Shown here in pieces: positions 2,621 to 5,848 of a stretch of 51,023 nucleotides of DNA. Source of the DNA: Frankia sp. AgB32. GTDB lineage: Bacteria; Actinomycetota; Actinomycetes; Frankiales; Frankiaceae. A program made the translations under genes and the position numbers. Each line of letters starts with the position of its first letter. Positions within the stretch are counted from its first letter, which is position 1. A model generated the notes under the pieces. The model saw only the letters and a list, made by a program, of their open reading frames with translations, was not told the DNA's origin and did not search any database. The stretch is from positions 1 to 51,023 of the forward strand of contig NZ_JALKFX010000048.1 of assembly GCF_023243045.1 (NCBI RefSeq), read 5' to 3'.

Positions 2621-4279
2621 ATGACCCCCGCCGATCTCGCCGATGTCATCCTCGCGGCCATCGGTCGCGCGGTCGCCGACGGCGACCTGGACGTGACAGT
2701 GCCGAGTGCCGTCACGGTGGAGCGTCCGAAGAACCCCGAGCACGGGGACTACGCGACTCCGGTGGCGCTGCAGCTCGCCAAGGCCGCCCGCCGCCCGCCG
2801 CGCGCCGTCGCCGAGGTGCTGGCCGGTCGTCTCGCCGCCGAGAGCGCCATCGCGCGCGTCGACATCGCCGGCCCCGGCTTCCTGAACCTCACGCTGGCCG
2901 GCTCCGCGCTGGGTGAGATCGCCCGCGGCGTGGTCCGGGCGGGGGCGAGCTACGGGCACGCGGCCAAGCCGCGTGACGTGCGGGTCAACCTCGAGTTCGT
3001 CAGCGCGAACCCGACCGGGCCGGTGACGCTCGCCTCCGCGCGCTGGGCCGCCGTCGGCGACGCGATGGCCCGGATCCTCACCGCGGCCGGGTTCTCCGTC
3101 GGCGCCGAGTACTACGTCAACGACGCCGGTGTGCAGATCACCCGGTTCGGCGCGTCCGTGCTGGCCGCGGCGGTGGGCGGGGAGATCCCGGCGGACGGCT
3201 ACCACGGCGCCTACGTCGCGGAGATCGCCGCCTCGGTGCTGGCCGACCGGCCGGACCTGCTGGACCTGCCGGCCGACGAGGCGCTGGCCGCGGCGGCGGG
3301 GACCGGTCTGGCGCTGATGCTCACCGAGATCCGGTCCACACTGGAGGGCTTCGGGGTCCATTTCGACCGCTGGGCGTCGGAGAAGGAGCTGCACGACGCC
3401 GGCGCGCTCACGGCCGCCGTCGACGACCTGCGGGCGCAGGGGCACGTGTTCGACTCCGACGGCGCGGTGTGGCTGCGCACCACCGACTTCGGCGACGACA
3501 AGGACCGGGTGCTGGTCAAGAGCGACGGCGAGACGACCTACTTCTGCGCCGACGCCGCCTACTACCGCGACAAGCGGGGACGCGGCTTCGACCAGCTCGT
3601 CTACCTGCTCGGCGCGGACCACCACGGCTACGTGGCCCGGCTGAAGGCCATCGCCGCCTGCTTCGGCGACGACCCGGCGACCAGCCTCGACGTCATCATC
3701 GGCCAGCTGGTCTCGCTCACCCGGGCCGGCGCGCCGGTGAAGATGTCCAAGCGGGCCGGGACGTTCGTGACCCTGCACGACCTCGTCGACGCGGTGGGGG
3801 TCGACGCGGCCCGCTACTCGCTGGTGCGCTCCTCCCTCGACTCGGCGATCGAGCTCGACCTGGACCTGGTCACCCGCCAGACCAGCGACAACCCGGTGTT
3901 CTATGTCCAGTACGCGCACGCCCGGATCAGTTCGCTGCTGCGGGGCGCCGAGGCGCTCGGGCTCGTCGTCGCGCCGGACAGCGCCGACGTCGCGCTGCTC
4001 ACCCATTCCCGCGAGGTCGACCTGCTGCGTTCCCTCGGCGAGTTCCCGCGGGTGGTCGAGGCCGCCGCGGCCCTGCACGGCCCGCACCGGGTGGCCCGCT
4101 ACCTGGAGGAACTCGCCGGCATCTACCACCGGTTCTACGACGCCTGCCGGGTACTTCCCCAGGGGGACGAGCCGGCGGGCCCGCTCACCGACGCGAGGCT
4201 GCTGCTGGTCGCGGCGACCCGCGTCGTGCTCGCGAACGGGCTCGGGCTGCTCGGCGTCAGTGCGCCCGAGCGGATGTGA
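2621..4279 (+). CDS. argS: Arginyl-tRNA synthetase with altered HIGH motif
   Basis: 552-residue class I aminoacyl-tRNA synthetase that charges tRNA-Arg with arginine. It has the N-terminal tRNA-binding domain, the Rossmann core starting at [12 protein letters not shown], a conserved [11 protein letters not shown] segment, the motif VKMSKRAGT (Lys374-Lys377) and an all-alpha anticodon domain at the C-terminus ending near [11 protein letters not shown]. The ATP-binding HIGH motif, normally HIGG or HVGH after NPTGP in ArgS, reads TLAS at residues 136-139, so both usual His positions are changed; the KMSK loop is normal. Length and all other landmarks are those of a full ArgS, and the conserved position before lysA suggests this is the housekeeping copy. 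Whether a second argS exists cannot be seen here. Confidence 0.93.
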
Positions 4280-4293
4280 GGGCGGGCGAGGCA

Positions 4294-4406
4294 TGACGTC
4301 GGCAGCGGCACATCGACCGCCCGCGCGCCGCGGCGCGGCGGCGCGGGCAGGCACCCGCAGGCAAGGCACCCGCGGGCAGGCCCGCAGACAGGCAGAGGCG
4401 ATATGA
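4294..4406 (+). CDS. Possible Arg-rich 37-residue small ORF between argS and lysA
   Basis: ATG 4294 opens a 37-codon frame with nine Arg codons that ends in a four-base overlap with the lysA start. The DNA contains a 15-bp-period duplication (GGCACCCGC at 4350 and 4365). The overlap geometry would suit a coupled leader peptide, but Arg-rich translation is also what GC-rich noncoding DNA gives by chance. No homologue is recognised and it may not be a gene. Confidence 0.2.
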
Positions 4407-5848
4407 GCGACACCGACAACCCGACGTCGGCAGGCCGGGCGACGACAGCTTCGGCGGAGCCCGGGGCGGGTGCCCTGGAGGAGAACCTCTGGCCGGCCAC
4501 GGCCGCGATCGACCCCGACGGCGTGCTGCGGATCGGCGGCGTCCGGGTCGACGCGCTGGCGGAGCAGTTCGGGACACCGGCGTACATCCTGGACGAGGCC
4601 GACTTCCGGGCCCGCTGCGCGGCCTGGCGGCGGTCGTTCGCCGACTGTGACGTCTATTACGCCGGCAAGGCGTTCCTGTGCCGCGCGGTCGCTCGCTGGG
4701 TCGAGGAACAGGGCCTGAGCCTCGACGTCTGCACCGGCGGCGAACTGGCCGTCGCCCGCTCGGTCGCCTTCCCGCCCGAGCGGCTGCTGTTCCACGGCAA
4801 CAACAAGTCCGTCGCCGAGCTGCGGGCCGCGCTCGCGTACGGCGTCGGGCGGATCGTCGTCGACTCCTTCGCCGAGATCGACCGGCTCGCCGCGCTCGCC
4901 GCCGAGGCGGGGGTGCGCCAGCGGGTGCTCATCCGGGTCACCCCGGGCGTGGAGGCGCACACCCACCACTACGTCTCCACCGGCCAGGAGGACCAGAAGT
5001 TCGGCTTCTCGCTGGCCGGCGGCGCGGCCGCGCAGGCCGTCGAACGCGTCCTCGCCGCGGACGGCCTGCACCTGGTCGGCCTGCACGCGCACATCGGCTC
5101 GCAGATCTTCGACACCGCGGGCTTCGGCCTGGCCGCGCACCGCATGGTCGGCCTGCTCGCCCGGGTGCGGGACACCCACGGCTTCGAGCTGCCCGAACTC
5201 GATCTCGGCGGTGGCCTCGGCATCGCCTACACCGGCGAGGACGCCCCGCTCGACGTCGACGACGTCGCCGAGCGGCTGGCCGCCGTGGTGGGCAAGGAGT
5301 GTGCCGCCGCGGGGCTGGCCGTGCCCCGGCTGGCCGTCGAACCCGGTCGCGCCATCGCCGGCCCGACGACGGTGACCCTCTATGAGGTCGGCACGGTCAA
5401 GGAACTGCCCGGCCTGCGCACCTTCGTCAGCGTCGACGGCGGAATGAGCGACAACATCCGCACCGCGCTCTACGACGCCCGGTACACCGCGCGGCTGGTC
5501 TCCCGACCCGGTGCGCCCACCCCCGGGGTGGTCACCATCGTCGGCCGGCACTGCGAGTCCGGCGACGTCGTGGCGCACGACGTGCCGCTGCCGGTGGACG
5601 TGCGTCCCGGCGACCTCGTCGCGGTGCCGGCCAGCGGTGCCTACCACCGGTCGATGGCGAGCAACTACAACCACGTCACCCGCCCGCCGGTCGTCGCCGT
5701 GCGCGACGGTGCCGCCCGGGTGATCGTCCGCCGCGAGACCGAGGAGGACCTGCTGCGTCTCGACACCGACCCGGAGGCCGAGCCAGCCCCGATCCCGGCG
5801 ACCTCCCCGGGCAGCTCCGCCGCGACCCGCCCGGCGGAGGCCCGATGA
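4403..5848 (+). CDS. lysA: Diaminopimelate decarboxylase
   Basis: 481-residue PLP enzyme of fold type III catalysing the last step of lysine synthesis, meso-diaminopimelate to L-lysine. The PLP-binding Lys is Lys89 in YYAGKAF. Other family landmarks are LHAHIGSQIFD, LDLGGGLGIAYTGED, VEPGRAIAGPT, the substrate-site GRHCESGDV and SGAYHRSMASNYN near the end. About 40 extra residues precede the usual N-terminus (Ala/Gly/Thr-rich). An AGAGG ribosome site lies before ATG 4403. Its stop overlaps the start of hom by four bases (ATGA), so the two are translationally coupled in an aspartate-family operon. Confidence 0.96.
   Translation: MSDTDNPTSAGRATTASAEPGAGALEENLWPATAAIDPDGVLRIGGVRVDALAEQFGTPAYILDEADFRARCAAWRRSFADCDVYYAGKAFLCRAVARWVEEQGLSLDVCTGGELAVARSVAFPPERLLFHGNNKSVAELRAALAYGVGRIVVDSFAEIDRLAALAAEAGVRQRVLIRVTPGVEAHTHHYVSTGQEDQKFGFSLAGGAAAQAVERVLAADGLHLVGLHAHIGSQIFDTAGFGLAAHRMVGLLARVRDTHGFELPELDLGGGLGIAYTGEDAPLDVDDVAERLAAVVGKECAAAGLAVPRLAVEPGRAIAGPTTVTLYEVGTVKELPGLRTFVSVDGGMSDNIRTALYDARYTARLVSRPGAPTPGVVTIVGRHCESGDVVAHDVPLPVDVRPGDLVAVPASGAYHRSMASNYNHVTRPPVVAVRDGAARVIVRRETEEDLLRLDTDPEAEPAPIPATSPGSSAATRPAEAR

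Follow-up and report, generated by a model that had tools for sequence, protein, structure and literature searches.

TLAS in place of HIGH in an arginyl-tRNA synthetase of Frankiaceae: probably a working variant of the class I signature

The arginyl-tRNA synthetase (ArgS, ArgRS) encoded upstream of lysA in Frankia sp. AgB32 reads TLAS at the site of the HIGH motif, the hallmark by which textbooks define one half of the aminoacyl-tRNA synthetases. Judging from comparative sequence data, the reading that is much the simplest at the level of the lineage, to which we assign a probability of about 0.8, is that this gene encodes a catalytically active ArgRS whose HIGH signature takes an alternative form, because the TLAS enzyme is the sole ArgS found in most of the TLAS-bearing genomes of the family. 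An essential, mostly single-copy synthetase that apparently works with Thr and Ala at the two most conserved positions of HIGH is a natural experiment on the purpose of the motif, and one that signature-based annotation would call dead.

The window, that is, the whole stretch of DNA analyzed here, comprises 51,023 nucleotides (contig NZ_JALKFX010000048.1, positions 1 to 51,023) of the 6.68-Mb, 274-contig assembly of this strain, referred to below as G000. The features of interest are as follows.

2621..4279, + strand: argS, arginyl-tRNA synthetase, 552 aa plus stop (TIGR00456, 385 bits; fold Z 39.4 to 3fnr)
2642..2896, + strand: Arg_tRNA_synt_N domain, residues 8-92 (Pfam PF03485)
3008..3022, + strand: conserved NPTGP, residues 130-134, preceding TLAS (sequence, relatives)
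3026..3037, + strand: TLAS, residues 136-139, at the class I HIGH site (sequence, relatives, model)
3545..3547, + strand: C309, candidate permissive site (column with C, S or T in TLAS rows)
3611..3631, + strand: GADHHGY, residues 331-337, conserved ArgRS segment, intact (active-site column listing)
3740..3751, + strand: KMSK, residues 374-377, intact (active-site column listing)
3905..4276, + strand: DALR anticodon-binding domain, residues 429-552 (Pfam PF05746)
4403..5848, + strand: lysA-like gene downstream, the usual neighbor of the operon argS and of its shortened relatives (locus comparison)

The original prediction had described the protein as normal outside the motif, and this description holds. 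The window ArgS exceeds the cut-off of the argS equivalog profile TIGR00456 (261.65 bits) and the gathering scores of PF03485, PF00750 and PF05746, which represent the N-terminal, class I (R) catalytic and DALR domains, and it carries both GADHHGY and the KMSKS-type loop of class I synthetases. Its predicted structure (model m90c78c1881d8; mean pLDDT 90.7) folds as an ArgRS: in the structural comparison, each of the top 15 matches is an ArgRS, with the Campylobacter enzyme 3fnr in the lead (rmsd 2.2, 441 aligned). In the model, residues 137 to 155 form a helix with residue 136 at its N-terminus, just before it, and the least certain stretch is the KMSK loop (residues 376 to 380, pLDDT <50). 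The HIGH signature itself, with H at position 1 and G at position 3, is absent, and we therefore class the window ArgS as a variant that belongs to the family by orthology and fold. The PROSITE form of the motif has H or T at position 1, G at position 3, and H, N, T or G at position 4.

At the DNA level, the codons acg ctc gcc tcc (3026-3037) specify T136, L137, A138 and S139 directly after N130-P-T-G-P134-V135. Together with the same reading in 24 of the 26 full-length operon ArgS proteins of the family, this bears out the claim that TLAS replaces HIGH at residues 136-139. The prediction went further, stating that both His and the Gly pair were gone. Among 60 sampled H-motif relatives from the Actinomycetes, every one (60/60) has H at the first and G at the third position of the motif, and position 4 holds H 41 times, G 16 times and A three times. 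The real departures of TLAS are H to T at position 1 and G to A at position 3; this part of the statement stands, with the qualification that position 4 varies in the relatives and is G in the HLGG and HIGG of the two other Frankiaceae proteins. Sequencing error and decay in a single strain are ruled out by the recurrence of TLAS in the family with varied synonymous codons, and an alignment slip masking a nearby HIGH is ruled out by the gap-free alignment, in the relatives read, of both flanks of the motif, NPTGP on the N-terminal and R-W-A-A-V-G-D on the C-terminal side.

Our family comparison covered G000 and 34 other genomes, 35 in total, which named matches from Frankia and Parafrankia indicate to be Frankiaceae. 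The 24 genomes whose full-length operon ArgS reads TLAS are G000, G001, G002, G004 to G012, G014, G016 to G021, G028, G029, G031, G033 and G034. The other two full-length proteins, with HLGG in G015 and HIGG in G013, both branch outside the TLAS clade, the main clade of the family, in which the motif is fixed. Thus, the close relatives of the window strain carry TLAS rather than the standard HIGH that would have discredited the prediction, and the standard motif is found in two more distant members. In the remaining nine genomes (G003, G022 to G027, G030 and G032), the operon copy is present in shortened form only. lysA follows next on the same strand at 20 of the 26 full-length loci and at seven of the nine shortened copies, and it was not seen within 1.5 kb at six full-length loci (L018 to L020, L022, L023 and L025). 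The lysA homologue beside the shortened copy of G030 carries Orn/DAP/Arg decarboxylase domains.

According to the TIGR00456 profile, the TLAS enzyme is the sole ArgS in 20 of the 35 genomes, including four single-contig assemblies (G001, G005, G028 and G031). The search was positive in 14/14 control genomes, bacterial and archaeal; the 20 genomes are 85 to 100% complete and include drafts, so that a missed copy is conceivable in some. G013 and G015 each have one standard ArgS, with a further match of just 20.5 bits in G015. A second ArgS above the cut-off accompanies the TLAS enzyme in G000, G009, G010 and G029, and was found in all nine genomes with a shortened operon copy. With no other ArgS in 20 of 35 genomes, an inactive paralogue is ruled out as the lineage-wide reading. 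For the same reason, the proposal that another argS does the work fails for most TLAS genomes, as does the related possibility of an inactive copy beside a second complete argS. For G000 it keeps some force: the genome-wide search that the prediction called for turned up a complete HVGH argS at C33:12549-14486. Since TLAS is present in many single-ArgS genomes, the motif is not a result of having a second ArgS.

Several signs of continued function are visible in the TLAS proteins. The window ArgS has the majority residue at all 37 other motif and active-site columns that were listed, 27 of which are uniform across all 34 TLAS rows. The ten variable columns are 129 (S in two rows), 142, 315, 334, 335, 337, 361, 374, 376 and 379; one deviating row each, from the CPR row, G014 or L147, accounts for columns 142, 315, 334, 335, 337 and 361, whereas column 374 is K or R and column 376 is G in four TLAS rows. 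The catalytic part (residues 111-390) gave omega values of 0.09 to 0.26 by Nei-Gojobori-type estimates across 14 pairs (a two-ArgS genome takes part in six of them), and the catalytic domain of the TLAS ArgS is under purifying selection. G000 itself shows no departure from this pattern, having a branch length of 0.027 vs 0.036 for its single-ArgS sister G006 in the 97-row tree and a catalytic omega of 0.20 for the G000/G006 pair, inside the range of single-ArgS genome pairs. Some other TLAS relatives may be decaying: in G014, GADHHGY is altered to LH for HH and D for Y, and four Nocardioides proteins (L139, L141, L157 and L158) have RMGK instead of KMSK, with G for S. The genome of L139 (N. 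halotolerans, G257) has no further TIGR00456 match besides this RMGK-type TLAS ArgS.

The original prediction had also offered a compensated active site. What survives is a working variant at the level of the lineage, as indicated by the 20 genomes with a sole TLAS ArgS; the compensation is weakly supported, and no accompanying substitution was demonstrated, with an independent-pairs sign test yielding four pairs on supported branches, which is too few. Columns 135, 309, 356, 359, 402 and 528, among others, differ from the H-motif rows in both TLAS groups. A plausible candidate site for a compensating change would be column 309, which is C, S or T in 33/33 actinobacterial TLAS rows vs A in 49/60 H-motif rows, S and T occurring at this column in H-motif neighbors too.

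Outside Frankiaceae, TLAS is rare. Of the 246 genomes sampled from the class, 19 contain the pattern NPTGPxTLA, and each of these belongs to Frankiaceae. A scan of 84,980 species, with one genome per species, in which contigs of <3 kb, as well as records close to the window, may have been missed, returned 29 matches to the strict TLAS pattern, each in frame within an ArgS: 18 from Frankia or Parafrankia, four from Nocardioides, two from Nocardioidaceae bins, two from Propionibacteriales bins, and one each from a Sporichthyaceae bin, a bin labelled Melainabacteria and a Candidatus Kerfeldbacteria bin. Eight of the 11 non-Frankiaceae TLAS genomes, including Nocardioides halotolerans DSM 19273 (L083, G257), have one ArgS match; two Nocardioides bins (G261 and G263) have two full ArgS, and G258 has two partial pieces. 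The TLAS argS of the bin labelled Melainabacteria is locus L094; at locus L147 of the same genome, lysA directly follows and is 72% identical to that of the window. This bin is probably a misbinned actinobacterium.

In the 97-row ArgS tree, computed with the motif columns left out, there are six changes between TLAS and other motifs, four of them forced by well supported branches, and an AU test against grouping the 33 actinobacterial TLAS rows as one clade gave p 0.00096. These trees reject a single TLAS clade, and more than one origin of the motif seems likely. Codon usage suits separate origins as well, since the 34 TLAS sequences encode the motif by 20 different 12-mers and Ser139 is TCN in 24/24 Frankiaceae rows vs AGY in six of the ten other TLAS rows. 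Lateral transfer or recombination of the short motif segment may instead be the cause. Reversion may have taken place in two HIGG rows that lie within Nocardioidaceae-like TLAS rows. Both this tree and the 40-row tree of second ArgS proteins are quick trees carrying long rows (CPR and L117), whose placements we did not use. The 97-row tree contains TLAS, H-x-G and one TAGN, and nothing else. As for intermediates, T-x-G with the Gly-His retained (TLGH, TIGH or TVGH) occurs in five of 396 genomes of the phylum, just part of which belong to the class of the window (L242 to L246; families f48 and f51), while H-x-A was found in none of the 246 genomes of the class.

The second ArgS of G000 has its HVGH at C33:13125-13136, scores 461 bits to TIGR00456 and is of the type carrying GPNIAKEMHVGH, which we take to be the E. 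coli-like type. Upstream of it on the same strand (L267, G000:C33:1-16165) lies a run of genes for an NRPS with condensation, adenylation, carrier and thioesterase domains, a CmlA-type beta-hydroxylase, a PALP enzyme and a P450; the ArgS gene begins ~0.36 kb downstream of this run, and the DNA between the P450 gene and ArgS reads as a transposase-like fragment. The L267 cluster and the HVGH ArgS are a candidate self-resistance pair. Farther downstream, the region L268 (G000:C33:18001-36000) contains a TerD gene and, side by side, two genes with TIR domains. Elsewhere in the family, the second ArgS is flanked on both sides by transposase genes in G003 and adjoins a terpene synthase gene in G029; its neighbors are a siderophore-interacting protein and a SAM methyltransferase in G009, a methyltransferase in G010, a CobU-like protein in G025 and a neighbor without match in G032. 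With one or two neighbors examined per genome, no common cluster was found around the second ArgS of these six other genomes. The second ArgS proteins of Frankiaceae occupy at least three places in the 40-row tree (the G000 type, the G022/G023/G026 type, and G024), and thus were acquired repeatedly. The one from G024 (L117, G024:C48:22500-27000) stands apart from the remaining second ArgS proteins of Frankiaceae, and its loop reads KMST.

The nine shortened proteins illustrate what can become of the operon gene. In a tree built on N- and C-terminal columns they sit inside the TLAS clade in three groups (G003; G022 to G026; G027, G030 and G032), and the losses of the catalytic core amount to three changes across the 5-95% range of bootstrap trees. 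Motif remnants reading TLAS (G003), TVAS (G022) and TLAA (G025) reveal descent from TLAS enzymes. The copies are graded (L112 to L116 and L119 to L122), with open frames of 475, 395, 366-347 and 313 aa, and are stages in the formation of an NrtL-like protein. Against the NrtL profile NF045898, with its cut-off of 340 bits, eight scanned core-less Frankiaceae proteins score 221 to 277 bits and a protein of G049 (L190, family f16) scores 450 bits; family f16 is presumably Streptomycetaceae. The window ArgS resembles NrtL to a similar degree (258.4 bits) but, like the eight, stays below the cut-off and, unlike NrtL, retains its catalytic core. A second ArgS is present in 9/9 genomes with a core-less operon copy vs 4/26 with a full-length copy (Fisher p 1e-5, raw, relatedness ignored). 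On these comparisons, TLAS ArgS gave rise to the NrtL-like proteins of Frankiaceae, in every case within a two-ArgS genome, and from the essential nature of ArgRS we infer that the second ArgS came before the loss of the core. NrtL-like proteins would thereby be tied to a sequence of events in which a second ArgS is present and the old copy then loses its catalytic core. In open PubMed Central text, no paper treats NrtL together with arginyl-tRNA synthetase, and papers on NrtL and Streptomyces seem unrelated by title. At L118 (G003:C1:585500-593500), two further ArgS-like frames below the TIGR00456 cut-off exist besides the shortened and the full ArgS of G003.

Among known systems, the nearest precedent is IleRS2, a natural, housekeeping-capable class I synthetase in which positions 1 and 3 of HXGH are both changed. 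According to the available part of PMC10485003 (Brkic et al. 2023), IleRS2 with G/AXHH is active, has acquired this form on two or more occasions, relatives having HXGH forms, and is linked to antibiotic resistance, with mupirocin hyper-resistance measured, whereas IleRS1 carrying GXHH is inactive; ArgRS has no occurrence in the main text of that paper. In IleRS2 the His is shifted to position 3 so that an imidazole stays, and its activity was measured; TLAS goes beyond this in that no His remains, and the TLAS ArgRS is known from sequence and model. The TIGN signature of active bacterial TrpRS (PMC10201369, available part) shares the Thr at position 1 of a class I enzyme and differs in having Gly at 3 and Asn at 4, where TLAS ArgRS has Ala and Ser, and in belonging to another family. 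Canonical NPTGP-type ArgRS, such as Campylobacter 3fnr or the HLGG, HLGH and HIGG enzymes of Actinomycetes, is encoded by the orthologous gene, usually in the same place before lysA, with the same domains and fold and largely shared other active-site residues; H at position 1 and G at position 3 set it apart from TLAS. The review of aminoacyl-tRNA synthetase duplication PMC9437257 contains no ArgRS case in its available part, and titles and abstracts in open PubMed Central text include no study of a TLAS-type HIGH variant in ArgRS, be it in Frankia or among non-canonical signatures and argS paralogues.

How might such an enzyme work? In HIGH, the first His normally contributes to holding the ATP phosphates. 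With Thr136 at the N-terminus of helix alpha-1, its hydroxyl could take over part of this role, much as Thr may act in TIGN of bacterial TrpRS (PMC10201369, available part). Ala138 would be small enough for adenine packing, and Ser139 would fill position 4, where it probably matters little because this position is G or A in 19 of the 60 H-motif relatives; the rest of the ATP pocket is largely unchanged. TLAS would have been fixed in an ancestor of Frankia, Parafrankia and relatives, once they had diverged from family members with HLGG or HIGG, and the TLAS enzyme alone would charge tRNA-Arg in most of Frankiaceae. In G000, the foreign HVGH ArgS may share charging or be taking over, and where a second ArgS settled, the operon gene has on repeated occasions been reduced to a core-less NrtL-like protein.

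This last step raises the question of whether the TLAS enzyme of G000 has already been superseded, with the foreign ArgS on C33 charging tRNA and the TLAS copy drifting toward an NrtL-like, non-catalytic tRNA-binding protein. The second ArgS is complete and canonical, second copies accompany every core-less gene, and three separate core losses, with remnants that betray TLAS descent, have taken this route within the family. We nevertheless consider the idea rather unlikely for G000, given a gene with no relaxation in branch length, omega or the 37 columns and a motif common to many genomes that have no second ArgS. A recent acquisition of the second ArgS would leave no trace of relaxation yet. 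The TLAS gene of the window is probably still the housekeeper of this strain, beside the canonical second ArgS. It is far harder to believe that the TLAS protein is inactive everywhere and that an unrecognised second arginine-charging enzyme serves all TLAS lineages. The loss of activity in HIGH histidine mutants of TyrRS (PMC5919687, available part) speaks for it and, like the inactivity of IleRS1 with GXHH, against a working TLAS enzyme, but we regard it as highly improbable in view of the four single-contig genomes with only one ArgS by a profile positive in all controls, and of the purifying selection on the catalytic domain.

A different question is why TLAS arose. It could be an antibiotic-escape signature, evading some inhibitor of ArgRS in the environment that recognizes the HIGH pocket and that also drove the repeated import of foreign ArgS. 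Such a history would match the appearance of the same tetrapeptide outside a single clade, the second ArgS genes that a single family drew from three or more sources, and the positions of two of them, ~0.36 kb from the NRPS run in G000 and beside the terpene synthase gene in G029; IleRS2, changed at the same two motif positions, provides a precedent (PMC10485003, available part). Against this, the second-ArgS neighbors in six other genomes share no cluster, the transposase-like fragment separates the P450 gene from ArgS in G000, and open PubMed Central text holds no paper that joins arginyl-tRNA synthetase, a biosynthetic gene cluster and self-resistance. All told, an escape origin seems distinctly unlikely. 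We know of no ArgRS inhibitor in these bacteria. A broader proposal, also unlikely though a little less so, is that TLAS is a convergent second working ATP-binding signature, with neither His nor Gly, borne by the only ArgRS in much of the family and favored by an ArgRS-directed natural product, and that the same pressure imported foreign ArgS and made the old gene NrtL-like, Frankiaceae preserving the stages of this conversion.

Two minor observations concern the profile searches and the surroundings of the window gene. Four genomes (G121, G306, G352 and G396) gave no ArgS match at all by TIGR00456, probably reflecting assembly gaps or divergent enzymes. Upstream of argS, the window contains a 708-aa open frame (40-2166) whose translation reads like a large serine recombinase, and a response-regulator-like frame (2176-2562) lies between it and argS.
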